NCBI RefSeq assembly: GCF_026616205.1
Contig: NZ_JANHGR010000001.1
Coordinates: 1,488,001-1,552,000 of the forward strand
Direction of reading: 5' to 3'
DNA length: 64,000 nt
Origin: Halolamina litorea
GTDB lineage: Archaea > Halobacteriota > Halobacteria > Halobacteriales > Haloferacaceae
Shown here: positions 8,477 to 37,724 of the stretch, piece by piece
Layout: every line of letters starts with the position of its first letter
Numbering within the stretch: the stretch's first letter is position 1
Position numbers and translations under genes: made by a program
Notes under the pieces: generated by a model
Database searches by the model: none
The model's input: the letters and a program-made list of their open reading frames with translations, nothing else
What the model was told of the DNA's origin: nothing

Positions 8477-9091
8477 GTGGATATCTCGCCATCAATCGAC
8501 CGACTGGAACGTCGATTCGTAGAGCGACCGGCAAACTATCTCGTAGAGGCTGAGCTCACTTTCGAGCTGAAGGAGATTCTCAACGACCAACTCCAGCCAG
8601 CACGTCTCTCCGGAACTCACGATTCAGGCGGTTCCCGCGGAGACATACCGAACCATTCTGAGTACGCTGACGCAGTCATCTCCACAGAGAGTATCGACCG
8701 AGCCCACTGTGAAGTGAGCGGGACGAACTTCGGGCTCGGAAGCAGCCAAATGAAGCTTGACCTCGTACTCTTCGACGAAGAGGTCCACCTGTCCCTCGAA
8801 GGAGGGAGCAAGAAGTTCCGGGCCGAAGACCTCGTGACAGCTGTCGAAGTAAAGTTCATCAAGAACGCCAAGTACCTCCGAGAAGACTCCAAGCGGTTCA
8901 ATCTCATTGCGGACGATATCGACCGGTTAGCCGGTCTCCCTGACTACGTCGACACTTACTGCCTCGCCTTTGGAAACTTCGACCTCACACGTCGGCCGGA
9001 TACCGAGGAAGCTCTCACGAGCCTGCAGCAGAGGGGAGAGGGCGTCGAAGTGCGCCACACCCATCCGCGGAGTAGTGAGGGGTCGAACTAA
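8477..9091 (+). CDS. PD-(D/E)XK-like nuclease-family protein
   Basis: 204 residues starting at GTG. After an N-terminal helical region, residues about 90-130 show the pattern of a PD-(D/E)XK nuclease core: KLDLVLFDEE supplies the metal-binding Asp and VTAVEVKFIKN supplies the E-x-K strand. The remainder (IADDIDRLAGLPDYVDTYCLAFG) fits the following helix and strand. Enzymes of this fold cut DNA or RNA; some are inactive relatives. Its last four bases overlap the 3' end of the convergent PLD-SNF2 helicase gene, so it may belong functionally to that defence operon despite lying on the opposite strand. The fold assignment is by motif only. Confidence 0.6.
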   Translation: MDISPSIDRLERRFVERPANYLVEAELTFELKEILNDQLQPARLSGTHDSGGSRGDIPNHSEYADAVISTESIDRAHCEVSGTNFGLGSSQMKLDLVLFDEEVHLSLEGGSKKFRAEDLVTAVEVKFIKNAKYLREDSKRFNLIADDIDRLAGLPDYVDTYCLAFGNFDLTRRPDTEEALTSLQQRGEGVEVRHTHPRSSEGSN

Positions 9092-12711: not shown

Positions 12712-12716
12712 TAAAT

Positions 12717-15563: not shown

Positions 15564-15569
15564 AGTGGA

Positions 15570-16202
15570 TTAAACGTGGTCCGCAAGCAGCACTCGCAGC
15601 GCTTTCACTCCGTTCGGACTGGATGGAGACCGGCACTTCGCGTGCCAGTAGTAGCACTCCTCCAAACTCATCCGGGCGATACTGTCCGCGACGGTCGTCA
15701 GCTTCTCGTACTTCTGAAGGCGCTTCATCGCGAGGAACGCGATGGTGAGTCGAACCCCACCACTCTCGGAGAGGACGACCGACCCCTCCCCGCGCATCAC
15801 GAGGTCGGTGTCAATCCCGCTGTCGTTCAGCACGTCGCGGACCAGTCGGTGGACCGCCTGCTGACGGCTATCGGAGAGAGTGGTGATTTTCAGCGCGCAC
15901 CAGTCGTCCCAGTTCCAGTCGTTGGGGGCACGGGCTGACGGTGCGCCGACGCCAGAGAGGTCGAGGACGCCGGTCGAGTCCTCCTCCGCGTCCGGAATCG
16001 CGTCGGTGATGCTGGTCCGCGTGAGCGTTCGGTTGCTGTTCGCTCGGCTGAACCGCTTCTGGCGTCCGTCGGCGAGGTCCTCGGGAATCAGCTCGTAGAG
16101 CGTGAGGCCGGCGTCGTCGCCCAGTCGACGCGTCAAGGCGAACGTCGGCCGACCGCCGTACATGCTGCTGCCGTAGGCGAACGACTCCGCCTCGACACTC
16201 AT
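15570..16202 (-). CDS. Conserved small component of the DUF499/DUF1156 operon (DUF7680/DUF3780-like)
   Basis: 210 residues with no catalytic motif that I recognise. The start reads SFAYGSSMYGGRPTFALTRR, and the end has a conserved-looking segment LEECYYWHAKC followed by VKALRVLLA. Its position between DUF499 and DUF1156 genes matches a small protein family (DUF3780, or the haloarchaeal DUF7680) found with these genes; the exact family is from memory and uncertain. Its start overlaps the DUF499 stop by four bases (ATGA type), implying translational coupling and a stoichiometric partner role. It could be a scaffold or regulator of the ATPase or methylase; this is inference. Confidence 0.65.
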   Translation of the reverse strand: MSVEAESFAYGSSMYGGRPTFALTRRLGDDAGLTLYELIPEDLADGRQKRFSRANSNRTLTRTSITDAIPDAEEDSTGVLDLSGVGAPSARAPNDWNWDDWCALKITTLSDSRQQAVHRLVRDVLNDSGIDTDLVMRGEGSVVLSESGGVRLTIAFLAMKRLQKYEKLTTVADSIARMSLEECYYWHAKCRSPSSPNGVKALRVLLADHV

Positions 16203-19200
16203 GCACTCACCTCGCCGCTCTGTTCTGACGCCTCTTTCACGATACCCGAGACCACCAGTTCGAGGTTGTTAATCCCACCGAGGGAATCGAGTGCTTCCTC
16301 CAGCGCGTTGAGGGTGGCCTCGCGGGAGTTGTCCTCCATCGACGCCGCGTCGACCATCAGGACGGCCTCGCCTTCCGAGTCGCCGCCGGCGCTGATGAAG
16401 CTCTCCGGGATGTGGTTCGTGCCGAAGTGGTTCGCGAACTCGTCGACGGAGCCCTCGAAGCCAGCCTCGAAGACGCTGCCCGCGGTGTCCGCACCTTCCG
16501 CGACGTACTCGAACACGATTGAGGTCGCGTCGCCGATACCCTCCAAGTCCTTGAGCTTGTTCGAGATGAACCACGCTCGCTCCCAGACTTGGTCGCCCTC
16601 CAGTTCGATTTCGATGGAGTCGACCTCGACGACGATGTCGCTGCTGGACACGTCGTAGTTGTCCCGAAGGCTCATCTTCCGCTGGTCGATGGCGCTGTTG
16701 ACCTCCGAGAACGCCCCGGTGACAGCTTTCGGAGTATCCGTTCGAGCGTTGAACGAGAGCTCGGACCGCGTGGTCGGTTCACTGATTCCGCCGCCACCGC
16801 CGCCACCACCACCGCCCCCGCCGCCGATATCGTCTTCTTCCTCTTCTTCGCCGTCGTCGTCTTCCTCCTCCTCTACGGGGAAGGTGAGCTCCTGTGCACC
16901 GAGCAGCTTCTCACCATCGCCGTAGACGTGGTGCTCGTCGCTAATCAGGACACTCGACATCGGAAGGGACGTAGACATTTCCTCAGCATCGGCGAGTGTC
17001 TTCTCCCCTTCGGGGGTGCTGACCGTCATAATCTCCGAGCAGTACCCCTGCCTGTCGTCCTCGTCCCAGAAGACGAACGAAGACATGCTGGTCAAGTCCT
17101 CGTCGTCGCCGCCATCCTTCCCGACGGTGATGTCCCGGATGGTCGCGCGGAGCGGTCGCGGGTCGAGCAGAATACGGATGTCCGTTCGCTTGGAGACGAG
17201 CTTCCGGATTTCCAGCGTGGTCATCGAGTCCGGGTCCGACTGCCAGATTCGGGTCCGGAACCACGTCGTCCCCAGTGCGCCCTCGTCCTGCGTGATGAGC
17301 TTGTCGAGGCTTTCGAGGTTCTCGAAGACGATGTCGTGCAGGTCGGAACTGTCGTTGACGGAGTCGATGGTCTCGTTCGACAGGCCGCCGGAGTCGGGGT
17401 AGTAGAGGTGCCGGTAGGACTGCCGGACGGATTCCCCGAGGAGGGCAGACTCCTTCTGGAGACGCTCGTCAAGGTCGTCCCGCTGAGCACTGTTGAGTTC
17501 GGCCTCCCACGCTTCGCCGTTCAGAATCCGCTCCATCGCTTTCACGCGCCGGGCGTGGTTGAGCGCGCCATCCGTTTCCTGCTCGCCGGCGACGAGGAAG
17601 ACGACGTTGTTGCGATAGACACGCTTCTTTTCCGAGCCCGGGGAGTTACCCGTCTTGTTGGCGAGCGTCTGCAGGAGTTCGGGCGGCTCATCGAGGTCGC
17701 CGGTGACGGTCACCGCGTCGAAGCCCATCACACAGAGCCGTACAGTGTCGTACTCATCCGGGACTTCGTACGGTGCCTGTGGGTCGTAGATTGTCTCGAA
17801 GACGCCACCGCCGAGCGCGCCCCGAATCGACTGTTCGAGTCGGTTCCGAGCGACTCCGGCCTCGATTTGCTGTGCCTCGTTCGTGATGAGCTTCGAAATC
17901 TTGGGTTCGCCCTTGAACCGGAGGAGACCGTTCTCCGTCTCGTACAGGAAGAACGCCTCCGTATCGGGGTTCGACCCCGTCTCGTTCAGGTTCTTCAGGG
18001 CGTCGCGGTAGTGGTCGAGTTCGACGCCGGGCTCCAGAATCATCTCCCAGAGCTTCCGGCGGTTCACCCCACGGCCACGATTACCCCCGGATACGATGCT
18101 CTTCCAGAGGATGCTCGTCCCGAGATGGGTCGCTATCGGGGGGTGACCCATCGGCGTCCAGTTCTCGTCCTCGTACTGGCAGGCTGCCTTGCCCTCCCTC
18201 GTGAACACGTCGGACTTGGAGGCTGTCCGGAGGTCTTGGTCGATGTGCTCGAAGAGTTCGATGAGCGTCGACCAGACGTACTCGTCGGACGGGTGCATGT
18301 CGAACGTACGGACGAAGTGACGCTGGTCGTTGGTCCCCTCGTCGTCGTTCCAAATTCGGTGGACTGCTCGTGAGACCAGCTTGAGTGCCCCGCGTGTCCG
18401 CTGGAAGTTCGGTAGCGTGTCTATCTCCTTCCCTAGCAGGTCGATGAGGGTTGGGTGGAACGGGTACGTCCGTTCGAGCTGGTCACGGAACTCTGCCTTC
18501 GTCACCCTGTCCGGGAGCTCGTCTTCGAACCGACGGTAGTAGTTCTGGTACTCCTCGGCGACCTCGGAAGCCACGCTATCGTCGACGGACTCGAATAGAC
18601 GATGGCGGAGGACTGCTGCCACCTCGTCGTCTTCAGTCGGCGTGACGGAGTGCTCCGTACGCTCGGAGATGTCGTCGAGGTCGTCGATGAGCTCCTGAAC
18701 TTCCTGCGCTCGCTCCTCGAACGCGGTGGCGGACACCGAGAGGATGACCGTCACTGCGTCACTGTTCTGGCTGGCACGCATCAGCGACCAGAGGAAGGAG
18801 TTCGTCTGGTCGGCCAGCGTCGACTCTTCGACGCCGACGGCCGCCGCCTGTTCGAAGTATTGCGCGACCTCGTCGATGAGGACCAGCCCCGGGTCGTCAA
18901 GCGTATCGAAGAGGTCGACGATGTCGGACTCACCGGGGGCGATTTGCTCGTCGTCGTACTCGCTGAATTTCGCGTATCCTTCTGCTCCCGCTAGCTGGTA
19001 GGCGAGCTCACCCCACATCGTCTGCGTGTTGGGGGCATTTTCGTCTTCCTTGTTGCACTTGGCGTTGGTCGCGCTGACGTAGCCCCCCTCGAACACGGCA
19101 GTCCGAACAGAGAGGTCGTCTTTGATGCTCTCGAACTCCTCCCGCACCTCTTCGTCGACGATGTACTTATCGAGGTTTTCGACTACTCCCGGGTTCCGAG

Positions 19201-19525
19201 AGAAGTGGTAGGCGGCTATCTGCGAGTGGGTCTTCCCCCCGCCAAACACGGTGTCAAGCGAGAGTAGCCCGTCCGCCCCGCTGAACTCACCAGCTTCCTT
19301 GCCGGCGTATCGCTTTGCGAGGAGGGTGAGCAAGTCCTGTAGACCGTCAGTCGCGTACGTTTTCGAGAAGAACGTTTCCGGGTCACCGTAGATGTCGGGT
19401 GCTTCGTCGGGCCTGAACACCACGTCCGAGAGCTTCGCAGCGAACTCGTTCTCCGAGAGCGTTCCCGAGAGCACGTCGTCGTGGGGAACACACGACTCGA
19501 AGAGGGTAGGAATTTCAGGAGCCAT
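16199..19525 (-). CDS. DUF499 AAA+ ATPase (BrxC/PglY-related)
   Basis: 1108 residues. Walker A is VFGGGKTH (93-100) and Walker B is GLVLIDEVAQYF (213-224). An arginine- and acid-rich ATPase body follows to about residue 850. The family (COG1483/DUF499) includes BrxC/PglY of BREX. Near residues 875-915 is a striking low-complexity linker: a run of Glu/Asp and then thirteen consecutive glycines, followed by a C-terminal alpha/beta domain of about 190 residues. It is the first gene of the operon; the promoter probably lies around 19559-19567, where TAATTTAC reads on the minus strand. In BREX the homologue is essential for defence and probably works on DNA. The role here is inferred from family and context. 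Confidence 0.92.
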   Translation of the reverse strand: MAPEIPTLFESCVPHDDVLSGTLSENEFAAKLSDVVFRPDEAPDIYGDPETFFSKTYATDGLQDLLTLLAKRYAGKEAGEFSGADGLLSLDTVFGGGKTHSQIAAYHFSRNPGVVENLDKYIVDEEVREEFESIKDDLSVRTAVFEGGYVSATNAKCNKEDENAPNTQTMWGELAYQLAGAEGYAKFSEYDDEQIAPGESDIVDLFDTLDDPGLVLIDEVAQYFEQAAAVGVEESTLADQTNSFLWSLMRASQNSDAVTVILSVSATAFEERAQEVQELIDDLDDISERTEHSVTPTEDDEVAAVLRHRLFESVDDSVASEVAEEYQNYYRRFEDELPDRVTKAEFRDQLERTYPFHPTLIDLLGKEIDTLPNFQRTRGALKLVSRAVHRIWNDDEGTNDQRHFVRTFDMHPSDEYVWSTLIELFEHIDQDLRTASKSDVFTREGKAACQYEDENWTPMGHPPIATHLGTSILWKSIVSGGNRGRGVNRRKLWEMILEPGVELDHYRDALKNLNETGSNPDTEAFFLYETENGLLRFKGEPKISKLITNEAQQIEAGVARNRLEQSIRGALGGGVFETIYDPQAPYEVPDEYDTVRLCVMGFDAVTVTGDLDEPPELLQTLANKTGNSPGSEKKRVYRNNVVFLVAGEQETDGALNHARRVKAMERILNGEAWEAELNSAQRDDLDERLQKESALLGESVRQSYRHLYYPDSGGLSNETIDSVNDSSDLHDIVFENLESLDKLITQDEGALGTTWFRTRIWQSDPDSMTTLEIRKLVSKRTDIRILLDPRPLRATIRDITVGKDGGDDEDLTSMSSFVFWDEDDRQGYCSEIMTVSTPEGEKTLADAEEMSTSLPMSSVLISDEHHVYGDGEKLLGAQELTFPVEEEEDDDGEEEEEDDIGGGGGGGGGGGGGISEPTTRSELSFNARTDTPKAVTGAFSEVNSAIDQRKMSLRDNYDVSSSDIVVEVDSIEIELEGDQVWERAWFISNKLKDLEGIGDATSIVFEYVAEGADTAGSVFEAGFEGSVDEFANHFGTNHIPESFISAGGDSEGEAVLMVDAASMEDNSREATLNALEEALDSLGGINNLELVVSGIVKEASEQSGEVSA

Positions 19526-25976: not shown

Positions 25977-27857
25977 TCAGCTATCGTGCCGAGTCAAACA
26001 GACAGGTAGACCTACGAGCTCGACAGGCCGCACGTCAGGCTGTTTCACCACCATCTGCCCCTTGTTGAACTGGGTAACGGATTCTTGGAACTCCTTTGGA
26101 ACGTACACGTCGTGGCTCTCGACCACGTCCCGTTCCAAGCCGAGATAGATTCGCGTGTTCATCTGCTTGCGAATCTCGCCGTTGATGTCCTGTGGCGTCT
26201 GCGTGATGATGTAGAGGCCGAATTTGTCTTTCCGACCTCGCTTCGCGGCCTGTTGGAAGTTGGAGACGAGGTAGCGTTCCCGCGGGTCACTTGCCTCCGA
26301 GATGTATTCGTGTGCCTCGTCCAGCGCCAGCAGCATCGGCGTTCCCTTGATGTGGGGGTAATCGACGTTGCTGCCGATTTTGTTCTGGACGATGTGTGCG
26401 AGCAGGCAGGACACGACGATTCGGTCCGTACTCCCGCGGAGATGGTCCGTCGGTATGACGGTAACCTGCCCCGGGGCGAACATCTGCTGAGTGAGGTCTG
26501 TCAGGCTGTCCGTCCCGTGGTCGAAGATTCGGTTGTACTCGTACTGGTCGACGATGCGCTCCCGGGCGGCAATCAAGACGCTCTCGTTCTGAGTGATGGG
26601 GGAACTGTCGGCGTCGGCGAGCAGCCTTTCGGCATACTGTGAGAACTCTCGGTAGGTTGGCTGAGGGTTTCCGTAGCTCGACTGGGGGTCGTTGCACTCT
26701 CGGAAGTACCGAGAGATGGTCTGGTTGATTGCTGACCGCGTTCGCTCCGGAGGTTCAGACGAGTAGAGGAGCTGGCGATTCGTTCGGACAATTTCGAACG
26801 GGATACCGAACGACCGAGCGTTGTTGTGCGTGATATTCGTGTCCTCAATCTGGGGCACGAAGACCTCGAAGTCGACATCAGGGTCCGGCTGAATACCTCC
26901 GTGGCGAATGTTCTGCGCGTCGAGGTCTTCTCGGAAATCGACCGTGTACCCGTCGTCTTCCGGGTCGTCACCCATCTCAACATACTCCCCTTCTGGGTCG
27001 ATGATGGTGGTGTTGAGCCCGCGGACTCGTTCGTCCTGCACGTCGACGTTCTCCTCTTCTCGCTCCTCCGGTGGGACCTCGATAGTGTACTGCTTCTCGG
27101 TCGCTAGCTGCCGAAGGATGTTCTTCGAGGCGTGAGTCTTGCCCGACCCGGTACTCCCTGCGACCTGCGCGTGGCGGAAGATAGCGGGCTCGCCGAGGTC
27201 TTCGTTGCCGTCCGTGGCGTTCGGGTTGAACAGGTAGTAGGGAAGCGGTGACTCCTCACTCGGAATCCGGTCGCCGCTAACAGCCATGTGGCCGAGGAAC
27301 GCTCCCTCGTGCGGGATACGGAGTGCTGTTCGGAGGAACTCCTCGTCCTCGACAAGATACACGTCACACCCGGGTTTGGGGGGTTTGTCGACGGTCACCT
27401 GCTCGAACGACGCATCGTCGTCTTCCGGGTCGAAGGTCACCGTGCTAATCGGCTCGATTTGGGCGACGTAGGAGAATGACTGCTCGCCCGGTTCGTGCCG
27501 ATACCCACCGTCCTGTTTGTCGGTGATGTTCGCGACTGTCGCGTACTCCAGTCGATTGATGACGCCGACGAGCATCGAGGTCGGGTAGTCAGCCTCCTGT
27601 TCCTCACTCACGGGGTACGGGATTCGCAGATAGTTCCCGAGACGAACATCGTCACGGAAGTTGGAGTCGATGAACGCCCGGATGTAGGAGTCCTCCCTGT
27701 CGACGACAATTGGCTCGTCCTGCGCGGTGATGTGGCCTACACGGTGACCGTCATAGTCACCGAATGGTGCAGGAATCGTCCATGCGTCCGTCTCGTTCTG
27801 TTCGTCCTGTCCTCCATCGCGTTCCTGCCGGACTTCGTCGAGGATATCGTCGGTCAT
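25977..27857 (-). CDS. herA: HerA-family DNA-translocating ATPase
   Basis: 626 residues. Residues about 1-160 give the HAS-barrel region. Walker A is AGSTGSGKTHAS near 233-244, and Walker B is LLALDEAHEY near 513-522. The following IITQTPQDINGEIRKQMNTR is the conserved HerA segment with the arginine finger. HerA hexamers pump DNA and pair with the NurA nuclease to resect DNA ends together with Mre11-Rad50. The gene is the last of the four-gene operon, 75 bases after nurA. The chromosome of a haloarchaeon would normally have its own copy elsewhere, so this may be an accessory paralogue with a defence or element-maintenance role. Confidence 0.92.
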   Translation of the reverse strand: MTDDILDEVRQERDGGQDEQNETDAWTIPAPFGDYDGHRVGHITAQDEPIVVDREDSYIRAFIDSNFRDDVRLGNYLRIPYPVSEEQEADYPTSMLVGVINRLEYATVANITDKQDGGYRHEPGEQSFSYVAQIEPISTVTFDPEDDDASFEQVTVDKPPKPGCDVYLVEDEEFLRTALRIPHEGAFLGHMAVSGDRIPSEESPLPYYLFNPNATDGNEDLGEPAIFRHAQVAGSTGSGKTHASKNILRQLATEKQYTIEVPPEEREEENVDVQDERVRGLNTTIIDPEGEYVEMGDDPEDDGYTVDFREDLDAQNIRHGGIQPDPDVDFEVFVPQIEDTNITHNNARSFGIPFEIVRTNRQLLYSSEPPERTRSAINQTISRYFRECNDPQSSYGNPQPTYREFSQYAERLLADADSSPITQNESVLIAARERIVDQYEYNRIFDHGTDSLTDLTQQMFAPGQVTVIPTDHLRGSTDRIVVSCLLAHIVQNKIGSNVDYPHIKGTPMLLALDEAHEYISEASDPRERYLVSNFQQAAKRGRKDKFGLYIITQTPQDINGEIRKQMNTRIYLGLERDVVESHDVYVPKEFQESVTQFNKGQMVVKQPDVRPVELVGLPVCLTRHDS

Positions 27858-27932
27858 GTGTTGAGTGTCGAGGTCGTCTGTGAGTGGTGGTCGGGGTCGG
27901 TTCGCTGCTTGTTCGAAGGGTGGGTAGCCACG

Positions 27933-29234
27933 CTAGTCCTCCATATCTCGGAACCCCCGCTTCTCGTTGTAGTCCTCTATCGCCCGGACGGACCCGATGA
28001 CTTGGCGGAGCTTGTTTCGGTCTACGCGAGTGATTCGGGCCATCTCGTCGGCATGAGTGATTGCCCGGGGTTCATTCTGCTGCTGGGCGAGCTCGACGAG
28101 GACCTTTCGCTGAATCTGGTCGCGTCGGTCAGCGTCGTCGACCAGTAAGTACGGAACTTCAATTCGCATCACGTTGTCTGTCATCGGCGTCCGCACGTAG
28201 AAGAACACGCGCTGGTACTCGCTGGCGTCACCGTGTTCGAGGTCGACATCGAACGACTCGAACGGAACTACGGGGTTGCTGCGGACGGTCTGTTTGGTCT
28301 GGCGCAGCCACGGAGTGTAGCTGATGATTGACCCGCGGTCACCGTGCTTGTCCTCCATAGTGAACAGGGCGTCGTCGAACAGTTGGTGGTCGTTCGTCCA
28401 CGGGAGCGGAACGGACACGTCGACATCCGCGTCCTCTATCTTCGTTTCCAGCGCGTCGAGAGCGACTGCCGAGCCACTAGTTTTCGTGATGCCCACGACG
28501 GGCAGGTCGCGTCGGTGCATCGTCTCGACGGTATTGACGTAGTTCTGGAGAATGTCCGAGACCATCTCGGGCCAAATCTCGGTCATCCGTCGCGGTCCTT
28601 CGCCGACCTGCTCGAAGAGCATCCAGCCGAACGCGGGGTTCGGGTATATCGGACCGTCGATGAACAGCGGACCGTCGATTTCGCCCGCCATCTCGTACGC
28701 GTGCCGCCCTTCCGCGTACGTGCGCGAGACACCCACGACGTACTCCTCTAGCCGGCTCGTTCGCTCACACTGGGGAAACTGGAAGACGTGAGCCTCGATT
28801 CCGTCCGGTGTGTCGAACGCTGAGTCGTCAATATCGCCCAGCGAGAACTCGTCTTCGTTCAGGTGAGCGACGAGCGTCGTCGTCGCTCGGTTGGCGAGCC
28901 CAGCGTGTTCCGAGTCACCCGAGACACCGAGCTTGGCCACGCTGGCACCAGCCAGTAGACCGTTGCTGAACTGCAGCGAGCGAGTGGTCGAGCCGTCGAT
29001 ACCGTAGGAAACGGGCCACGGGTCGTCCCACTCGTACACGTCGGCGGTCGGTTCGTGGATGACCCCGAACTCCTCGTCGTCTGGAAGTAGTGGTTCGATG
29101 TATCCTCCCGGGAGACCAAAGTAGCTCAAGGCTTCTTCCGCCGTTATTCGGGACTCTTCTTCGAACTCGCTGACCGCGTGGTTGAGTTCGGTGAACATCC
29201 CTTCGAGGGCGGCGTAAGCCCCGAGGTCAGTCAT
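27933..29234 (-). CDS. nurA: NurA-family nuclease
   Basis: 433 residues. SYGIDGSTTRS carries the first catalytic aspartate (D80) of the RNase-H-like NurA fold. Further signature segments are PLFIDGPIYPNP near 190 and LPVVGITKTSGS near 245-256, which supply strand and metal-ligand positions. NurA is a 5'-3' exonuclease and endonuclease working inside a ring with HerA. It starts 39 bases after rad50 and is followed by herA. The assignment is strong from both motif and operon context. Confidence 0.88.
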   Translation of the reverse strand: MTDLGAYAALEGMFTELNHAVSEFEEESRITAEEALSYFGLPGGYIEPLLPDDEEFGVIHEPTADVYEWDDPWPVSYGIDGSTTRSLQFSNGLLAGASVAKLGVSGDSEHAGLANRATTTLVAHLNEDEFSLGDIDDSAFDTPDGIEAHVFQFPQCERTSRLEEYVVGVSRTYAEGRHAYEMAGEIDGPLFIDGPIYPNPAFGWMLFEQVGEGPRRMTEIWPEMVSDILQNYVNTVETMHRRDLPVVGITKTSGSAVALDALETKIEDADVDVSVPLPWTNDHQLFDDALFTMEDKHGDRGSIISYTPWLRQTKQTVRSNPVVPFESFDVDLEHGDASEYQRVFFYVRTPMTDNVMRIEVPYLLVDDADRRDQIQRKVLVELAQQQNEPRAITHADEMARITRVDRNKLRQVIGSVRAIEDYNEKRGFRDMED

Positions 29235-29273
29235 CGACGACCACCTCGGAGTAGTGCTGTCTGGCCCCTCACG

Positions 29274-32009
29274 TCAGACCACCTGTTCCGCTTCATCAGG
29301 TCGGATGATTTTGCTCGTCTCCGTCGACGGGTTCTTCGCGACCTGAATCGCCCTGTCGCTGTTCTCGATGAGGTGTTCATCGTGGCTCACCACGAGGACC
29401 TGCGGAACGTCCCACTCGCTGATGGTGTCAATCATGGTCTGGAGTTCGCCGACGTGGTCTTCGTCGAGGAACGTCGTTGGCTCGTCAAGGATGAACGGCG
29501 GGAGCGCTGCACCGGCCACACCTTCGCGTTCGGCGATGATGCGATAGACGCCTGCGCGGAGGGCGAGGTTGAGGATTGTCGACTCTCCCCCGCTGGAGAG
29601 CTCTGGTTCGAGAAGTTCGTTATCCGAGGTCACGAGATGGATGTTGTACTTCTTGTCAATCCGAACCCCGCGGTACGACTGGCTCTGGTAGAGTTCGGAG
29701 AACATCTCGTTGGTGTACTTGTTGAGCTTCGCAAGGTTGCGTTTGCGAAGCTTGCCTCGAACCGTCTTGTAGGCCTCCTGCAACTGCTCGGCCTCTTCGA
29801 CGTGTTCTGCGGCCCACGTGACCTGTTCGTCGAGCATTGCCTTGCGTTCCTTCTCCTCTCGTACCTGTTCCTTGGTCTGGCGATGCTCGACGATTTCTCC
29901 CTTCACGTCTTCGAGCCGCTCTTCAGCATCGGCTTTGTCGGACTCGTACTCATCGATGTATCCCTCGATTTCCGAAATCTCTTCCCGGAGTTCCTCCCCA
30001 TCGAGGTCACCGAGTTCGTCTTCGAGCTCTTCTTTGTCTTCTTCGAGTTCATCCACCCGCTCCTCCGCCTGTTCAAGGAGCTTTGAGAGGTTCCCGATGT
30101 TCTCGTCGCACTGCTGGATATCATCACGGAGCTCCGAGACTTCCTCGAACCACTCAACTACCGTCTCTACCGCTGCTTCCTTCTCTTCTGCCTCATCGAC
30201 GTGCTCCTCGGCTTCGCGGAGCCGCTCTTTCGCGTCACGAAGTTCGCTCTCTTTCTCCTCGCGTTCTGCCTTGTGCTTCGCGAGGTCCTCGCTGAGTGAT
30301 TGAAGCTCTTCCTGCGCATCTTCGATATCCGCTTCAGCCTCTGCTACTGCGGATTCGCCGTCTTCTACCGCTTGCCGAGCATCATCGAGGTCGTTGTCTC
30401 TGAGTTCTCGTGCATCGTTGACTTTGGTTTCCAATTCCTCTAGAGAATCCTTTGTGGCGTCGAGTTCGGCAAGTTCGTCCTTCGCATCCTGCAGTTCGCT
30501 GCGGTGCTCTTCAGCTACGGATTCGGCATCGATGTCGTGTGCTTCCTCGTTGGCCTTGCACACGGGACAGCGACCAGATACAGTGAGTTGGTCTACCTGC
30601 TCTTCCAGCGTCTCAAGTTCCCCGATGGTCTGACGTACCTCTTCGCGCCGGTTACTCAGTTCCTCACGTTTCCCCGGTATACGGTCTTCCGCCACCGTAT
30701 CGAGAGATTCGTCCGAAGGAATGTCGAGCTCTGACGCGAGTTCACCGATAGTCGCGCGCATCTCAGCCAGTTCGGCTTCGAGCTCGTCGACACGCTCCTC
30801 GGCTTCCTCGCGTTCCTCTTCGGCGTTCTCCTTCTCGTTCTGGCCCTTATTGATGGCTGACCAGCTTTCGCGAATTTCTCCGACGGTGCTTTCGATGTCC
30901 CGTTCGAGATGGTCGAGGTCGTTCTCAATATTGGATATCTCTCCCTGTTCAATCGACTGGACGGTAGAACGGGCATCCTCTGCCTCCTCACGAGCCTGCT
31001 GGAGTTGTTCTTCCGCAGACTCGTGGTCGGATAGGTCGATATCATCGACGACCTCGACGCTCCGGGCATCGACGAGTGACCCCTCCGCTTCGTCGAGTTT
31101 CGATTCTAACTCGGACCTCGTCGATTTCTCCTCAGTAAGGTCTCCCTCGTACTCGTCACGGTCGTCACGCGCTTGGCCGAGTTTTTTCTCTACTTCGTCG
31201 ATTTCGCCTTCGAGTTCCTCGATACGCTCCAGTTTTTCTTCGTTATCCTCCTTCCTATCCTCTAGGCGTTCGAGCGTATCTTCGAGGTCCGCGATTTCGT
31301 CCTCCCGCTCGGACTCCTCCTCTTGCAGGTCTCCGATTTGTTCTTCGAGGTCATCGATGGCAGGGAGGTCGTCCAAGCGGTTCTGCGTCTCTTCTCTCCG
31401 AGACTTTGCGTGCCTCTTCGCCCGACCGTATTCGAGTCGAACGTCATCGGCTCTCTCGATGAGTTCGTCCATCCGGTCGAGGCCGAGCAGCCCATCGAGG
31501 ATTCCTCGACGGGTCTCTGTATCGGCATGGATGAGGCGTGTAATGTCCCCTTGCTGGACGTAGACCGAGTTGACGAAGGAGATAGCATCCATCCCGACAA
31601 TCTCCTGAATATCGCTCTGGACTGCCCTAAACCCAGAGATTGTCTCTTCCATTGCTGGAGAGGAGAGCTTCGGATAGCCACTTTTCGTCTTCGCGCCATC
31701 AACCTCTCCGTCATCGTCGTACGTCTTTTCGATGACCCACTCGACGGTGTACTCCTCACCGCCGACGACGAACGTGAGCTCGATACGGCCAGAATCTTCC
31801 TGCTTACGGACGAGTTCATCGAGGTTGAACTCACTATTCACCTTCTTCTTGGTTATGTTCGTCTGGAAAAGGCCGCCGAACAGGCCCTGCAGGATGGTTG
31901 ACTTTCCCGCCCCATTGGGTCCAAAGATGAGGTTCTCCCCATCCGAGAATTCGACTGTTTCGTCGTCGTAACTCCGTATGTCTTCCAGCGTGAGTGACTT
32001 GAAGTGCAT
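29274..32009 (-). CDS. Rad50-family SMC-type ATPase
   Basis: 911 residues. Walker A GPNGAGKST (30-38) follows the N-terminal strand (KSLTLEDIRSY). Long Glu/Arg-rich coiled coils run about 180-480 and 490-760. The zinc hook CPVCKA sits near residue 483, between the coils. The ABC signature LSSGGEST near 800 and Walker B FILDEPTTFLD near 838 complete the head. This is a full-length Rad50, which with Mre11 tethers and processes DNA ends. Its start directly abuts the mre11 stop (no gap). It differs enough from a generic chromosomal locus by being linked to herA-nurA in an accessory region. Confidence 0.92.
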   Translation of the reverse strand: MHFKSLTLEDIRSYDDETVEFSDGENLIFGPNGAGKSTILQGLFGGLFQTNITKKKVNSEFNLDELVRKQEDSGRIELTFVVGGEEYTVEWVIEKTYDDDGEVDGAKTKSGYPKLSSPAMEETISGFRAVQSDIQEIVGMDAISFVNSVYVQQGDITRLIHADTETRRGILDGLLGLDRMDELIERADDVRLEYGRAKRHAKSRREETQNRLDDLPAIDDLEEQIGDLQEEESEREDEIADLEDTLERLEDRKEDNEEKLERIEELEGEIDEVEKKLGQARDDRDEYEGDLTEEKSTRSELESKLDEAEGSLVDARSVEVVDDIDLSDHESAEEQLQQAREEAEDARSTVQSIEQGEISNIENDLDHLERDIESTVGEIRESWSAINKGQNEKENAEEEREEAEERVDELEAELAEMRATIGELASELDIPSDESLDTVAEDRIPGKREELSNRREEVRQTIGELETLEEQVDQLTVSGRCPVCKANEEAHDIDAESVAEEHRSELQDAKDELAELDATKDSLEELETKVNDARELRDNDLDDARQAVEDGESAVAEAEADIEDAQEELQSLSEDLAKHKAEREEKESELRDAKERLREAEEHVDEAEEKEAAVETVVEWFEEVSELRDDIQQCDENIGNLSKLLEQAEERVDELEEDKEELEDELGDLDGEELREEISEIEGYIDEYESDKADAEERLEDVKGEIVEHRQTKEQVREEKERKAMLDEQVTWAAEHVEEAEQLQEAYKTVRGKLRKRNLAKLNKYTNEMFSELYQSQSYRGVRIDKKYNIHLVTSDNELLEPELSSGGESTILNLALRAGVYRIIAEREGVAGAALPPFILDEPTTFLDEDHVGELQTMIDTISEWDVPQVLVVSHDEHLIENSDRAIQVAKNPSTETSKIIRPDEAEQVV

Positions 32010-33209
32010 CTATCGTTCCTCCAGCGTAGCTTCCCCGAACTCCTCTTCCTGTGCCGCACGGATTCGATGGTTCATCTCGGTTCGGATGTCGCCGTCGTCG
32101 ACGGATTCGTCGCGGACGAGGTCTTCCGCTTCAGTAGAGATTGAAGAGAGGGAGAGCTCCGAAAGTTCGTCGTCAATCATCTGGTCGATGTCGTCGATGT
32201 CCCCCTCGTCAAACTCGAAGTCGAACTCGGCATCGACCTGCCGCCTGTCGTCGACGTGCGGGACGGACACGTCTCTTTGGGAGAGTAGATTGTACACGTC
32301 GTTGGTCGTGACCGGAACGTCGACGCCACGGAGACGGACGACGATGACCTTCTCAGCGATGTCCTCCCCACCTGCCTCCTCGTTGATTCGGCGCTCAACG
32401 TGGTCGATTCCGTGCCCCTCCTCGAACTCCACGTTCACGACGAGGAAGTCTCTGGGGACGTTGTCTCGGCCTGCACTCTCTATCGTTCGCGTTCGGAGTT
32501 GGATGTCCTCATCCGCTATTTCCAGCACGTAGACACAGGGGTCGGTGCTTTCGGAGACCTTCGTCCGCTCGGTTGCCCCGGGATAGAACGCTTTCACACC
32601 GTTCACCTCGGTGTTGCAGGTCGAATGGTAGTCACCCAACGCTAGCCCGTCTGGCAGGAAGTTCAGGCGGTCGAGAAATTCATCGAGATGGTAGGGCTGT
32701 CCCCTGTGAGGGGGAACCAACGGTTCGAACAGCTCGTGCATGCAGAGGAGGTTTACCGCGTCTTCGTCGGCTCGCTCTTCTAGAGTGAAGTCGTAATTAT
32801 CCCACTGCGGGTTACGAACCGCGTCGAACCCGAACACGTTGACAGGGTTGTCCCCCTCCGCTTCGGAGACTCGGGTTGGGGACGGCGAGAGACGCTCCGT
32901 GTTCCCGAACCGTTTGACGATATCCATCCACTGCTCGTCCCGCTTGCGCTCGTGATTCCCCACGATGGCGAGAAACGGGATGTCCTCAGAGTCCAAGCGC
33001 GAGACAGCGTCGAGACAGCGATTTACCGTTGGAACATTCGGAGAGGGGTCGTCGAAGAGGTCGCCAGTATGAACGACGGCTTCCACTTCTTCGTCGATGG
33101 CGATATCCACGGCGGCGTCGAACGCGTCCGCGAAATCGGACCGCCTGACGTTGCTTCTGTACTGTCGCAGTCCGAGATGGGTGTCGCTGACGTGGAGTAT
33201 CTTGGTCAT
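32010..33209 (-). CDS. Mre11-family nuclease
   Basis: 399 residues. Calcineurin-like metal ligands in order: DTHLG (D9, H11), GDLFDD (D50), GNHERK (N85, H86), CMHELF (H158) and ALGDYHST. In the last motif canonical Mre11 has G-H-x-H; here D193 replaces the first His while H195 is kept. Asp can still bind a metal, so activity may be changed rather than lost. The C-terminal third is acidic and carries a capping-type region. It leads the operon; Rad50 begins at the next base after its stop. As a pair they would process DNA ends for HerA-NurA. Confidence 0.9.
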   Translation of the reverse strand: MTKILHVSDTHLGLRQYRSNVRRSDFADAFDAAVDIAIDEEVEAVVHTGDLFDDPSPNVPTVNRCLDAVSRLDSEDIPFLAIVGNHERKRDEQWMDIVKRFGNTERLSPSPTRVSEAEGDNPVNVFGFDAVRNPQWDNYDFTLEERADEDAVNLLCMHELFEPLVPPHRGQPYHLDEFLDRLNFLPDGLALGDYHSTCNTEVNGVKAFYPGATERTKVSESTDPCVYVLEIADEDIQLRTRTIESAGRDNVPRDFLVVNVEFEEGHGIDHVERRINEEAGGEDIAEKVIVVRLRGVDVPVTTNDVYNLLSQRDVSVPHVDDRRQVDAEFDFEFDEGDIDDIDQMIDDELSELSLSSISTEAEDLVRDESVDDGDIRTEMNHRIRAAQEEEFGEATLEER

Positions 33210-33663: not shown

Positions 33664-34488
33664 ATGGACTTACCGGACCGCCCCGGTGATAGATGGCGGG
33701 ACTTGCGTCAGGATGTTATACACAATAACTCCATTAAGTGGGTTCAACAGGATGAGGTTTCCCCTCTACCCCCAAATCTCGACGCCTACACAGATGTACT
33801 ACCCGGCGTGCGAGTACATCACTCCAGTTGGGCTAACAAGGATGATATCGCAGTCTGGGAGCCCGGAAATACTAATCTATACTTGGTCACTCGATACGAA
33901 CTCGTAGAGAAATTACTCGAAAGCAAGAGTGAAATCCCACAGAGGGTCATTGCGGTCCTTATTCTGGCGGGCGGCGCCGTTGTTTTCAAAGTTCTACTTG
34001 ACCTTCTACAGGGACTGGCAGACAGTTCCACTAGCGAAACAACCTCGAAAACCGGAAGGCAATCTCAGCAGCGCCCAAACCCGAGGAATCGTCAGTATAA
34101 TATATTCATCAGTCACGCTTGGGACTACACCGCAGAGTATGAGAGAGTGGTCGAATTCCTTGATGGGTTTGAAGAATTAGAATGGCAGAACCATAGTGTC
34201 CCTCTCGCTGACCCTCTCGATGTCGTGAACGGAGCTCACCTCCGGTCACGGCTCAAAGACCAAATTCGAACTACATCAATTGTTCTCGTACTTGCCGGAA
34301 TGTATAGCGCTCATCGAAAGTGGATTCAAAACGAGATTGAGCTCGCTGAAGAATTCGATAAGCCGATTGTCGGCATCGAGCCTTATGGGTCGGAACAAAC
34401 GCCAAACGTGGTTGAGGATGTAGCAGACGAGATGGTCGGATGGCGGCGGAACTCGATAGTACGAGCGATTGTGGACAACGCAGAATAA
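33664..34488 (+). CDS. Membrane-anchored TIR protein (DUF1863/ThsB-like)
   Basis: 274 residues. The N-terminal part (1-93) is unrecognised and contains a compact domain (SIKWVQQDEVSPLPPN). One transmembrane helix lies at about 94-115 (VIAVLILAGGAVVFKVLLDL). A linker of Ser/Thr/Gln (118-142) leads to a TIR domain of the DUF1863 type at 145-274: NIFISHAWDY, then SVPLADP, IVLVLAGMYS, and the W-x3-E motif (W220, E224) holding the putative catalytic glutamate. The domain ends PIVGIEPYGS and DEMVGW. ThsB of Thoeris has this TIR type and makes a cyclic-ADP-ribose-like signal. Here the TIR would face one side of the membrane. Its stop is 3 bases from the 3' end of the convergent membrane-protein gene. 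Confidence 0.8.
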   Translation: MDLPDRPGDRWRDLRQDVIHNNSIKWVQQDEVSPLPPNLDAYTDVLPGVRVHHSSWANKDDIAVWEPGNTNLYLVTRYELVEKLLESKSEIPQRVIAVLILAGGAVVFKVLLDLLQGLADSSTSETTSKTGRQSQQRPNPRNRQYNIFISHAWDYTAEYERVVEFLDGFEELEWQNHSVPLADPLDVVNGAHLRSRLKDQIRTTSIVLVLAGMYSAHRKWIQNEIELAEEFDKPIVGIEPYGSEQTPNVVEDVADEMVGWRRNSIVRAIVDNAE

Positions 34489-34491
34489 CAG

Positions 34492-35103
34492 TCAGTTTCC
34501 CTCCCCCGTATAGTCCCAGTATTTTTGCGTGGGGCTTTTTCCTTTAATGACCAGCACAGCATACCCACTCCAGAGTAGAGATAGAGCGATTACCGCCGGC
34601 CAATAGAGGTTCAACCCTCCGATGAGGGAAAGTCCACCATATAGAATCAAAACTGCATAAAAGAACCCGAACACACGAGGCCACCACACTTCTACGGTTG
34701 TATGCTTGATATAAACCTCTGCTTCGGAACCTTGCTTAAGCCGGTCCCATTCCATACGAAATGGGTCATACGGTAGGTCTTCGGCTATTTCCCGTAGAAC
34801 ACGGTACTTCCCACTGTTCAACTGTTTATAAGAGAGGATGTGGAACACCCACAAGACGCAGAACGGTAGGCCTATCGCACCGATGAAGAATATCCCGATG
34901 GGGGTGATGAAGTCTAGCTTACTCCCAATCCCAGCTAGTCCAAGAAGAGCGATGAGCAGTCGCAGGTAGAATCGATTATTCTTGAGACGCCGGTTACTCA
35001 CCTGTTGGGTTGACTGCCCGTAGAACTTCCATTGTTCAAGAGCTGGATTTCCGTCGGCTTTCGAGCCTGATTCTCCGTCCCCGCTATCGCCGTCATCACT
35101 CAT
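34492..35103 (-). CDS. Membrane protein coupled to a TIR gene
   Basis: 203 residues. After a disordered acidic start (1-22) comes a short amphipathic segment (EQWKFYGQSTQQVSNRR). Four membrane helices follow in two pairs: about 45-60 (LRLLIALLGLAGI), 67-90 (PIGIFFIGAIGLPFCVLW), 147-165 and 168-185. Between the pairs lies a cytoplasmic helical stretch, KYRVLREIAEDLPYDPFRMEW, that I have seen in small membrane proteins next to DUF1863 TIR genes. It might act as a membrane effector, for example of SLATT type; that comparison is tentative. Its start overlaps the TIR gene stop by four bases. Confidence 0.65.
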   Translation of the reverse strand: MSDDGDSGDGESGSKADGNPALEQWKFYGQSTQQVSNRRLKNNRFYLRLLIALLGLAGIGSKLDFITPIGIFFIGAIGLPFCVLWVFHILSYKQLNSGKYRVLREIAEDLPYDPFRMEWDRLKQGSEAEVYIKHTTVEVWWPRVFGFFYAVLILYGGLSLIGGLNLYWPAVIALSLLWSGYAVLVIKGKSPTQKYWDYTGEGN

Positions 35104-35549
35104 GGTGACAATTCACGGATTGCTGAGACGATAGAATCAGTGTTCCACCCGACCATTTCATCCGCATGTCTTTCGACGTAATCAGAGGTATTGTCGCTCC
35201 CCCATGGCTCGACACCGATTATGGGCTTGTTCTCTTCTTCAGCGATTCGTACTTCGCGACCAATCCAGTCACTGTACGATGAATAAAGACCGGCAAGAAC
35301 GACTACAACGGATGACGGTTTTATTTGGCCCTCACGAATTTCCTCTTTCAATTCTTCTACTGAATTGGCATCAATCGCATCTTCTTCCGGAACACTATAA
35401 TTGCGATATTCGAAGTAATTCGCATCGTCAAGGAGTTCCTCCATTCGCTCGTATTCTTGGCTGTAATCCCACGAGTGGGAGATGAACAGACGGTACTCAC
35501 TCCGGTCGTTCGTGCCCAATGATATCGTCCTGTTACTACTAAAGGACAT
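35100..35549 (-). CDS. Soluble TIR protein (DUF1863/ThsB-like)
   Basis: About 149 residues from the ATG at 35549; an in-frame start at 35576 adds nine residues. Nearly the whole protein is a TIR domain: RLFISHSWDYSQEYER, YSVPEEDAID, VVVVLAGLYSS, DWIGREVRIAEE with the W-x3-E glutamate, PIIGVEPWGS and DEMVGWNTDSIV. It is clearly related to the TIR domain of the gene at 33664, sharing the same motifs in order. The four-base overlap with the following membrane-protein gene implies equal production. A TIR enzyme plus membrane partner fits a signal-synthase/effector pair. Confidence 0.8.
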   Translation of the reverse strand: MSFSSNRTISLGTNDRSEYRLFISHSWDYSQEYERMEELLDDANYFEYRNYSVPEEDAIDANSVEELKEEIREGQIKPSSVVVVLAGLYSSYSDWIGREVRIAEEENKPIIGVEPWGSDNTSDYVERHADEMVGWNTDSIVSAIRELSP

Positions 35550-35705
35550 ACCAACCATTGGTGTAGTTCTAAACATGAAAGTTACCGATGCAGGTTACTA
35601 CGGAGACTTAGTGACAGCAGGTAGTGGAATTTCACCAGTTCGAACACCGGCAAAATAGTTAAACCTTCCCACAAGTTATCGAACTCTGTTAAGCAGAGGT
35701 CGTGT

Positions 35706-36449
35706 ATGGATTACCTCGCAAAAGCCCTCCACAGAGCAACATACGACCGTGTTGCGTATGAACCAATTAGGGAGGATTTCATCTCGTGGTACGTCTCCGC
35801 CTACAGAGATTTGGGGATTGAAGAGCAGATAGATTGGGATAACGGCAGAATTGTTGAAAAAGCGATTGAAGCGAGAACGGAAGCACAGAGCTATGAACCA
35901 GATACGACTCTGAACACGGCTATCAAGGTGACAAGTGAGGTAGATGCTTTCATCAAATCCGTCTCCGCACTTCTGACTCTTGTTGGTTTCCTGTTGGGTG
36001 GGGTGCTGGCAATGTTCGGCCTCTATAATCCCTACTCTACAAGCATATCAGTGCTTAGTTGGGCTTTCAGTAGCGGTGCCCTCATCTTCCCGGGCGGTGC
36101 ACTACCGTTCTACGCTCTGCTAAAATACACAGTTCAGACGAATTCCGAATTAATTCGTCAGTACAACGCCGACTTAGTGGTCTCTATCGGCCGGATAACA
36201 AGGGCAGAGCGCCGCCGGGAGCTTACTACGGCTTTCTACATCCATCACTCTAGCCTTTGCTCAACTAAGCAAGTTCCAGTAATCGTTTTTCTAGGGCTTT
36301 TGAGGGCTATATCACCGGGAATGTACGGCTTAGTATCATACCGTTTGAAACAGGACATCTCGGAATACGAAGGTTCCAACTTCTGGAAGATAGCAGGGAA
36401 AGAATATAGTAGACTGAAGAGAGGACGATACCCAAGAATTTCTGAGTAG
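35706..36449 (+). CDS. Membrane-associated hypothetical protein
   Basis: 247 residues. A soluble N-terminal part (1-85; ATYDRVAYEPIREDFISWYV) is followed by two closely spaced hydrophobic helices at about 88-108 (VSALLTLVGFLLGGVLAMFGL) and 113-138, then a helical charged region and a further hydrophobic stretch near 195-210. It has lower acidity than the chromosomal genes. No family recognised. It is divergent from the TIR/membrane pair, with the 129 bases between carrying both promoters. Confidence 0.5.
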   Translation: MDYLAKALHRATYDRVAYEPIREDFISWYVSAYRDLGIEEQIDWDNGRIVEKAIEARTEAQSYEPDTTLNTAIKVTSEVDAFIKSVSALLTLVGFLLGGVLAMFGLYNPYSTSISVLSWAFSSGALIFPGGALPFYALLKYTVQTNSELIRQYNADLVVSIGRITRAERRRELTTAFYIHHSSLCSTKQVPVIVFLGLLRAISPGMYGLVSYRLKQDISEYEGSNFWKIAGKEYSRLKRGRYPRISE

Positions 36450-36556: not shown

Positions 36557-36665
36557 AATCGATTCACGCGTGTCATAATAATCTAGAGCAGGTATGTGAA
36601 GGTCATTTCTAGCATATTCTTATCAGATAGAAACTGTGTACTCACGGGAAGATACACGGTTGTGT

Positions 36666-37268
36666 ATGGTACGGGAATGCGAGGCCTGCGGGGAGGAGTT
36701 CGCAACGCTCTCTCGCCTTCGACTTCATGACTGTCCGGAACAAGAAAAGGAGGAGCTGTTGGTTGGGCTTTCGGGCGAGCCTGACGTGGATGCCCTACCC
36801 GACCGGCCGCTCACTGAGGAAGAGTTCCAAGTGTTACAGAACGACGAGCGAATCGGACGGGTCAAAGAGGTGTTGTCCGCTCCCGGGACGGGAAGCAAGG
36901 TCATCTCGTTCATCTACGAGGCTGAAGAGATGGTCTTCGGGATGCATTCAGACCACGACACGGGTGATTGGATAGTGACGACGCGGGGCGGGGCTTCGGA
37001 GTTCGAGCGTGTGGAAGACCGACACGACGAATGGGTGTCAAAAGACATTGAGCGCGTGACCGGCGGCTCGGTCGATATGGATAACGTCGGTCCCGTCAAA
37101 GACGAGTTGACAATCAACTGCGGATTGTGCGGAGACGAACATGTGTTGAAGGCTGACCCCAACAAGCAGATGGCCGAGATAGGGTTGATGGAGTATACGG
37201 GATACTGCGAAGGTGAGGGGGAACCACTGGTGCGGACGTATTCGCTGGATGAGGTTGTGAAGGACTGA
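36666..37268 (+). CDS. C2H2/C2HC zinc-finger hypothetical protein
   Basis: 200 residues from the ATG at 36666 (a GTG at 36636 adds ten). The first 25 residues carry a zinc finger, CEACGEEFATLSRLRLHDC. A central beta-rich domain follows (SKVISFIYEAEEMVFGMHSD, DWIVTTRGGASEFERV). Near residue 155 a second Cys pair appears (NCGLCGDEHV) with a late Cys in GYCEGEG. It is the last gene before the tRNA-Arg boundary. Role unknown; a nucleic-acid- or protein-binding function is likely. Confidence 0.6.
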   Translation: MVRECEACGEEFATLSRLRLHDCPEQEKEELLVGLSGEPDVDALPDRPLTEEEFQVLQNDERIGRVKEVLSAPGTGSKVISFIYEAEEMVFGMHSDHDTGDWIVTTRGGASEFERVEDRHDEWVSKDIERVTGGSVDMDNVGPVKDELTINCGLCGDEHVLKADPNKQMAEIGLMEYTGYCEGEGEPLVRTYSLDEVVKD

Positions 37269-37650
37269 AAGAGTGTTGCGAGCACGGCTACGACGCTGGA
37301 ATGGACTATGACCTTGGTCAGATAGGGAACCTTCTCATCGGTTCTTGACCCAAATGGATGGATGTCACGCGCGGTCGTGGTTGTGGTTCTCAGATGACCC
37401 GACCAGCCACCAGAATCTCTACTCGCTTGGACGCAGGTGACGCGCGCTGGCTCAAAGTGAGAGCCACTCTTTGTCAATTTTCTCAAACAACGGCACAGTT
37501 AAGATGGAATAGGCCCATGTTAGCTCTAGTGAATCGCACGACGGAGGAGAGGAGGATGACGTGGCATCATGAACTCGACGCTGAGAGCGGCAGAGGGTTT
37601 ATATACACGTCGACGCCGTCTGTTGACTCCTAAGTGTCACGCAGAATGAT
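37269..37650. other. Gap between the last accessory gene and tRNA-Arg
   Basis: No convincing gene. A 91-codon frame (37358-37633) is Arg/Thr-rich and lacks haloarchaeal composition. An attachment site would be expected here, because the gap adjoins the tRNA 3' end; I could not find a second copy of the tRNA end in the window. Confidence 0.45.
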
Positions 37651-37724
37651 GGGCGCTGCAGGATTTGAACCCGCGGCAGCTTGGTCCGAAGCCAAGTACT
37701 CTGTCCAGGCTGAGCTAAGCGCCC
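37651..37724 (-). tRNA. tRNA-Arg (anticodon TCG)
   Basis: The 74-base minus-strand sequence folds as a full cloverleaf: acceptor GGGCGCT/AGCGCCC, D-arm GCTCAGCCTGGACAGAGT, anticodon arm CTTGG-CTTCGGA-CCAAG with anticodon TCG (reads CGA), and T-arm GCGGG-TTCAAAT-CCTGC. CCA is not encoded. Its 3' end faces the accessory region, which suits tRNA-directed integration. A TATA-like CTTAAG lies about 30 bases upstream. Confidence 0.95.

Follow-up and report, generated by a model that had tools for sequence, protein, structure and literature searches.

What might two TIR proteins do on either side of a small membrane protein, at a locus with no Thoeris ThsA gene in sight? The question is raised by three adjacent genes in the 64,000-nucleotide stretch analyzed here (G000:C1:1488001-1552000, hereafter the window), part of a 3.02 Mb haloarchaeal genome. 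The TIR proteins match the Pfam family ThsB_TIR (PF08937) and the membrane protein matches the "Octameric membrane protein family (8xMP)" (PF24838). Our preferred interpretation, held with somewhat more confidence than doubt, is that the three genes act together against viruses as a single cassette, a TIR system akin to Thoeris with 8xMP as effector.

Composition of the cassette

33664..34488, + strand: TIR1, or transmembrane TIR1 (TM-TIR1), 274 amino acids (aa); N-terminal region, hydrophobic segment (95-113), linker and ThsB-type TIR domain (148-243)
34492..35103, - strand: 8xMP membrane protein (PF24838), 203 aa; four hydrophobic segments; likely effector
35100..35549, - strand: TIR2, a short ThsB-type TIR without a hydrophobic segment; Glu in WIGRE; the open reading frame (ORF) can be extended to 35576
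35100..35103, - strand: four-base overlap (ATGA) of the TIR2 stop with the 8xMP start; probable translational coupling

TM-TIR1 is convergent to the TIR2-8xMP pair, and the two TIR genes flank 8xMP. A first-pass annotation made from the DNA letters had already placed these three ORFs and described the transmembrane (TM) helix in TIR1 and the four-base overlap, all of which we confirmed. In a Pfam scan, PF08937 matched TIR1 with 50.1 bits and TIR2 with 63.9 bits (cut-off 21.2); DUF1863 is, we take it, the older name of this family. PF24838 matched residues 22-155 of the membrane protein with 107.5 bits (cut-off 30), a family membership that the annotation had missed. At E up to 0.001, the genome holds no matches to either family other than those of the cassette. 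The longest TIR2 ORF spans 35100-35576 (-) and encodes 158 aa; the start at 35549 appears better than that at 35576 because the ORF of an orthologous locus (L070) begins at the aligned Met.

Pairing of TIR and 8xMP genes in haloarchaea

Among 391 haloarchaeal genomes drawn for comparison, 25 carry 8xMP above the cut-off (27 matches) and 115 carry a PF08937 match. About 15 kb was fetched around each 8xMP gene where the contig permitted. A PF08937 TIR adjoins 8xMP at 26 of the 27 matches, giving side-by-side pairs in 24 genomes; the lone TIR-less match (G363, 59 bits) lies on a contig that ends ~1.6 kb beyond. The TIR gene is upstream of 8xMP and on the same strand in 26/26 loci, and the two genes overlap by exactly 4 bases in nine of these. 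Because the 26 TIR-paired 8xMP proteins span six groups at 60% identity, recent shared descent alone does not account for the pairing. A crude estimate that assumes random placement puts the chance of such adjacency at 2e-67 for 26 of 27 matches and at 2e-16 for six of six groups. The association is genuine and of long standing. The first-pass annotation had proposed looking for co-occurrence of the two genes and for NAD-processing residues in the TIRs. The pair extends far beyond this genome: besides the 26 haloarchaeal loci it turns up in archaea of other classes, on plasmids of bacteria and on contigs of viruses, and the catalytic-position Glu is retained throughout those loci (35/35 TIRs; see below). 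Neither 8xMP nor PF08937 was matched in the five members of the same genus that the draw included.

A second TIR is present at 9/26 loci (the window and eight others) and is thus optional. The exact trio with a convergent TM-TIR occurs in three genera according to their taxonomic labels, represented by the window, L070 (G078) and L071 (G380), and DNA similarity among them is limited to the trio. At L077 a short TIR precedes 8xMP and a long TIR is divergent; at L078-L081 and L084 the long TIR precedes 8xMP and the short one is divergent. Single-TIR loci carry either a short TIR (L069, L072, L073) or a long one (L065-L068, L074-L076, L082, L083, L086-L088, L090), with an ORF of 127 residues at L085. 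The upstream TIR is always short in the window's 8xMP group and in the L072/L077 pair, and long in the remaining groups except at L085. That each 8xMP group keeps its type of operon TIR suggests specific pairing. TIR1 can be lost, since in Haladaptatus halobius (L004) the sole match to it beside TIR2 and 8xMP covers residues 246-273.

At four loci, the long TIR is separated from the full 8xMP gene by small ORFs that match the 8xMP profile (L082:7194-7457, L083:7542-7781, L085:7669-7899 and L090:7452-7682), as if one 8xMP had replaced another behind the same TIR. At L090 the full 8xMP is itself split over two frames.

The pair beyond haloarchaea

A draw of 392 genomes across the phylum gave 25 above the 8xMP cut-off; seven were haloarchaea already seen, and loci were fetched for the 18 left. 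Strong non-haloarchaeal loci (≥86 bits) have a TIR gene within ~1.5 kb in 8/8 cases fetched, a count that leaves out a ninth strong match. The fetched loci do not include G392's second match (111.7 bits) or the other Megaera record. A local profile recognized ThsB-like TIRs in six of the eight (L129, L130, L132-L135). L128 and L131, counted here as having TIR neighbors, carry TIR_2-TM proteins rather than ThsB TIRs, the one at L131 on the opposite strand.

There are 8xMP matches in 25 plasmid records. At six of the 13 bacterial plasmid places examined a TIR gene is adjacent, namely in Synechococcus, Novosphingobium, Polaromonas, Paenarthrobacter, Paracoccus (with 8xMP split in two) and Rhizobium. 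The TIR of Rhizobium is part of a TIR/NB-ARC/WD40 protein whose gene precedes 8xMP; PADLOC identified the TIR and Pfam the WD40 part, and NB-ARC comes from the annotation. Because this partner already has a sensor-like WD40 part, 8xMP is the likelier effector. Among three loci on viral contigs, L151 and L152 also have the TIR pair and L153 lacks it, and the 4-base TIR/8xMP overlap recurs in Synechococcus, Paenarthrobacter and viral contig L151.

Some neighbors of these genes deserve mention in their own right. A second TIR in Novosphingobium was considered as a second ThsB and rejected, PADLOC assigning it to a short-Argonaute-type TIR fragment. On Paenarthrobacter plasmid pYJN5-2 (L125:478-4438), an annotated TIR and caspase-family pair, which is type IV Thoeris-like, ends ~1.7 kb before the TIR-8xMP pair on the same strand. 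In three distant archaea a related-looking large gene without a Pfam match stands directly before TIR-8xMP (L133:2374-3387, L134:1-873, L135:2395-3378) and could be an extra component. The protein following a TIR-less 8xMP on a Streptomyces plasmid (L105:4292-4822) looks SLOG-like by eye and has no Pfam match.

The two TIR proteins

Both window TIRs retain the motifs ISH-A/S-WDY, W-x3-E and DEMVGW, as the first-pass annotation had noted. The Glu at the catalytic position is residue 224 in TIR1 (WIQNE), with its TIR2 counterpart in WIGRE. W-I-x-x-E is kept in 35/35 TIRs at the 26 haloarchaeal 8xMP loci, and the Glu is invariant in alignments A2 (15/15) and A3 (9/9). A profile of the long TIRs places it on the W-x3-E of a Bacillus cereus TIR (8fz9, E 0.031) and of EcThsB (8wcf, E 0.16), both weak E-values. 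A Foldseek search with the TIR1 model retrieved MTH538, EcThsB and the B. cereus TIR; the mean predicted local distance difference test score (pLDDT) of this model is 61, with 56-85 in the TIR part. The usual residue near the catalytic Glu is Phe or Ala (PMC11204291), and the window TIRs carry Phe in the strand-A motif, the position having been matched by eye. In the TIR tree, long and short TIRs are split with 86/99 support, which is below the tree's own threshold, and the outgroup rows sit on long branches.

In TIR1, a 94-residue N-terminal region precedes one strong hydrophobic segment. This segment is strong in the three orthologs of the trio (window, L070 and L071) and less so in L065-L068, and in the remaining long TIRs it does not reach the threshold. 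The flank before it has four basic and four acidic residues, and that after it five basic and two acidic; this charge difference, which is weak evidence, points to a topology in which the TIR domain is probably inside and the N-terminal part outside. The first-pass annotation suggested that one TIR is pre-anchored; TIR1 may be, though only the trio has the segment in strong form.

The membrane protein

The 8xMP model (mean pLDDT 75) has helices at 20-62 and 68-107, both long, and at 128-160 and 164-186. Most invariant residues of alignment A1 either precede the first hydrophobic segment (Y28, R39, N43, R44, F45) or fall in the stretch from the second segment to the third (W85, S91, L95, N96, Y100, L110, E118, W119, L122, T135, V137, E138), regions taken to be on the cytosolic side. 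Relative to the short family members, the window's 8xMP group carries one more helix at the C terminus.

With E values of up to 1 allowed, Pfam gave nothing but 8xMP for the window protein, with neither macro nor SLATT domains among the matches. NCBIfam yielded no useful match, PADLOC-DB 2023 nothing for the four 8xMP proteins tried, and the phage records no match to the window protein. We presume that NCBI's name for 8xMP-like proteins is the RipA family. In a second fold comparison the top hit was a designed transmembrane nanopore (Z 9.9), followed by mixed helical bundles, a range of scores common for helical proteins.

Membrane proteins beside other ThsB-type TIRs

As controls, seven loci with a ThsB-type TIR and no 8xMP were fetched from the same class; five were inspected gene by gene, and L094 and L096 were scanned with local profiles only. 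At L097 and L098 a gene for a DUF4231 protein (SLATT superfamily) precedes the TIR. L092 (5697-7314) and L095 (5785-7391) have a TIR, an unnamed protein with two TM segments (2TM) and another TIR in a row, and L093 (5682-8000) has a TIR-2TM pair with a convergent TIR further on. The unnamed 2TM protein of these three loci is 142-143 aa long and has no Pfam match. Comparison of 8xMP with the 2TM family by hhalign established no relation (probability 3.7), and comparison with SLATT gave nothing, against a two-row SLATT profile only. These loci suggest that ThsB-type TIRs swap membrane partners in haloarchaea, the partners being 8xMP, SLATT/DUF4231 and the unnamed 2TM family. SLATT proteins, which occur with TIR genes in firmicute phages, are predicted to be permeability effectors regulated by an ADP-ribose (ADPr) derivative (PMC9503650). 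Because other small membrane proteins, SLATT included, fill the slot beside ThsB TIRs, an effector role is the simplest reading for 8xMP.

Comparison with known Thoeris systems

The closest likeness is to the type II Thoeris system of E. coli, which comprises a long TIR, EcThsB1 (TIR construct 165-307), a short TIR, EcThsB2 (169 aa), and a TM effector (PMC11204291). The cassette shares with it the ThsB TIRs, one long with an N-terminal part and one short, and a (predicted) membrane effector, a likeness that the first-pass annotation overlooked; it differs in the effector itself, which in E. coli is TM-macro ThsA and here would be 8xMP, a protein with no macro domain. A long and a short TIR with one membrane effector are found in the window and at eight of the other 25 haloarchaeal loci. 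The resemblance to type II is one of layout and not of effector homology, and the layout is not that of every type II system.

Type I Thoeris likewise has ThsB_TIR family proteins, with SIR2-SLOG ThsA as partner (PMC7272460, PMC11204291). Unlike it, the cassette pairs its TIRs with a membrane protein, and no SIR2_2 match (PF13289, the sole SIR2 family searched genome-wide) is present in the genome. Pfam likewise gave no SLOG, SIR2, macro or caspase domain above cut-off in 16 proteins of the island and its flank, macro and caspase not having been searched genome-wide. A search for the STALD (SLOG) family returned nothing anywhere, controls included, and hence is no evidence of absence. The SIR2_2 search and the 16-protein scan agree with the first-pass statement that no ThsA (SLOG/SIR2) gene lies nearby. 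Type IV Thoeris, in which a TIR is joined with a caspase-like protease (PMC12847820), is similar in that the TIR has an operon partner, and differs in that no caspase match was found in the 16 proteins. The predicted TIR-SLATT pairs (PMC9503650) also place a TIR beside a small membrane protein, with predicted permeability control by an ADP-ribose derivative, but 8xMP has no SLATT match in Pfam. By its predicted effector, the cassette is none of types I, II and IV, but would be a Thoeris-like system with another effector family.

Literature searches found no paper pairing "octameric membrane protein" with "TIR domain", nothing relevant on 8xMP or PF24838, none naming a TIR-8xMP pair, and none with either of the two wordings tried for a third type, "type III Thoeris" and "Thoeris III". 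Since type IV is in print, a type III presumably is too; it may be this pair or a similar one, and the pair may already have a name.

Genomic setting

The cassette lies in a defense-rich, low-GC island that ends at a tRNA gene and whose left end is outside the window.

37650..37724, - strand: tRNA-Arg (TCG), right edge of the cassette-bearing island

Synteny with the five genus relatives (L116-L120; 81-82% identity) runs rightward from 37.60-37.65 kb, the point at which the match to each of them breaks off. The G+C content per 2 kb is 0.48-0.63 to the left (window 1-37650) and 0.62-0.70 to the right. DNA similarity of the cassette region to the loci compared (L003, L004, L005, L069, L070, L071, L073) is confined to 33723-35512. 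Two ORFs at 35706-36449 and 36636-37268 were considered as further members of the cassette and excluded because neither has a match in the other loci examined and DNA similarity stays within this interval; the former is a membrane-protein-like ORF of 247 aa beside the cassette, without a Pfam match.

Further left, 9088-19525 encodes an Hma-like system: an SNF2/PLD helicase (DrmD/HmaA-like), an HmaB-like methylase, DUF7680 and an HmaC/DUF499 ATPase. A HerA gene (25977-27857) together with NurA-like, Rad50-like and Mre11-like genes, named by eye, occupies 25977-33209, directly left of the cassette. A second protein of the genome, at C1:927658, is 36% identical to the Mre11-like one. G391 holds part of a copy of the Mre11-like gene, which matches over the first 154 residues at 92% and contains one in-frame stop. 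The G391 locus (L121, G391:C1:2262000-2278000) matches the window in pieces at 17.1-22.2 and 32.7-33.6 kb with 91-96% identity; the match stops 63 bases before TIR1, and the rest of the 16 kb has no match to the cassette. A third TIR gene in the window (3258-4046) encodes a TIR_2 protein (62 bits; PDC-S66/ThsB-like by PADLOC). It faces a gene for a 195-aa protein with a hydrophobic start (2634-3221).

Proposed mechanism and alternatives

By analogy, we infer that the cassette works like type II Thoeris, with 8xMP replacing TM-macro ThsA. On infection, the TIR domains would oligomerize and convert nicotinamide adenine dinucleotide (NAD+) to an ADP-ribose-type signal, whose target would be the conserved stretch of 8xMP that separates the second helix from the third; the protein would then open as an oligomeric pore, and membrane potential would be lost ahead of virus maturation. 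The core enzyme or sensor would be TIR2, given its probable coupling to 8xMP in translation, and TM-TIR1, membrane-held and bearing an N-terminal region of its own, would serve as a second, optional sensor. Virus sensing, NAD cleavage, the ADPR-type messenger, pore opening and abortive infection are all carried over here from what is known of Thoeris. The first-pass annotation had likewise imagined that a signal made by one TIR may act on the membrane protein; the pairing, the kept Glu and the lack of ThsA support that idea in part.

Several points weigh against this interpretation. Most members of the TIR family are found apart from 8xMP: among 115 haloarchaeal genomes with PF08937, 91 have no such pair. 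No TIR was found by the local profile at any of ten weaker archaeal 8xMP matches (31-57 bits), nor was one found near 8xMP at 5/13 plasmid places (Leptolyngbya place 1, Embleya, two Streptomyces and Megaera); the profile also missed the TIR_2 of L128 and the annotated Acaryochloris TIR, and the absences at the ten weak loci, in Embleya and in S. nigrescens may be misses. At Leptolyngbya place 2 the TIR_2 match is sub-threshold (18.7 bits versus a cut-off of 28), and the annotated Acaryochloris TIR gene is the only one there, ~2.6 kb from 8xMP. The Pfam scan recognized no nucleotide-binding domain in 8xMP, and the PDB yielded no solved relative by sequence or by fold (none at E < 0.001). The pore is drawn from the Pfam family name and from inference, and the octamer comes from the name itself. 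Finally, EcThsB2 of E. coli type II has the catalytic Glu in its structure, yet showed no NADase activity (PMC11204291), so that a kept Glu is no proof of activity.

The order of events could be reversed: 8xMP would be a membrane sensor or restraint, and the TIRs would be effectors that destroy NAD+ once released. The conserved Glu (35/35 TIRs) is also compatible with this scheme, as is the probable placement of the TM-TIR1 domain at the membrane next to 8xMP, and some TIR systems do kill directly by NAD loss (PMC12847820). However, the TIR/NB-ARC/WD40 partner of 8xMP has a sensor-like part of its own, 8xMP occurs in some bacteria with no TIR found nearby, which would be odd for a dedicated TIR sensor, and SLATT, which fills the same slot elsewhere, is a predicted permeability effector (PMC9503650). 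We consider the reversed order unlikely.

Less probable still is a scheme without a diffusible signal, in which TIR2 would be bound stably to 8xMP in a single complex, and the TIRs, by assembling on the cytosolic face, would open the 8xMP ring mechanically. It would suit the apparent translational coupling, with its 4-base overlap in 9/26 loci, and the constancy of the operon TIR type within 8xMP groups (short or long, the 127-aa ORF of L085 excepted). A purely structural TIR would, however, have no need of the Glu that all 35 TIRs keep, and the known types I, II and IV of Thoeris work through messengers (PMC12847820). It is very improbable that the genes are a membrane module for housekeeping or stress that has nothing to do with viruses: several bacteria do have 8xMP with no TIR found nearby, but the spread is patchy (25/391 haloarchaeal genomes, none of five genus relatives in that draw), the cassette sits within a defense island, and matches extend to 25 plasmid records and, as the TIR pair, to 2/3 viral-contig loci.

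Implications

The proposed antiviral cassette, with 8xMP as effector, may belong to something wider. We tentatively suggest, as an idea that could well prove wrong, a separate Thoeris-like type across archaea and bacteria in which NAD-consuming TIRs would gate an octameric 8xMP channel via a new or known ADP-ribose-type messenger, some lineages having added a second TIR, anchored in the membrane, to sense infection or produce the signal there. If so, prokaryotic TIR signaling would have a new class of target besides NADase, macro-gated membrane and protease effectors, and 8xMP, a Pfam membrane family for which we found no function, would gain a role as an immune pore. The cassette would also offer an archaeal system for a genetic test of cooperation between two TIRs.

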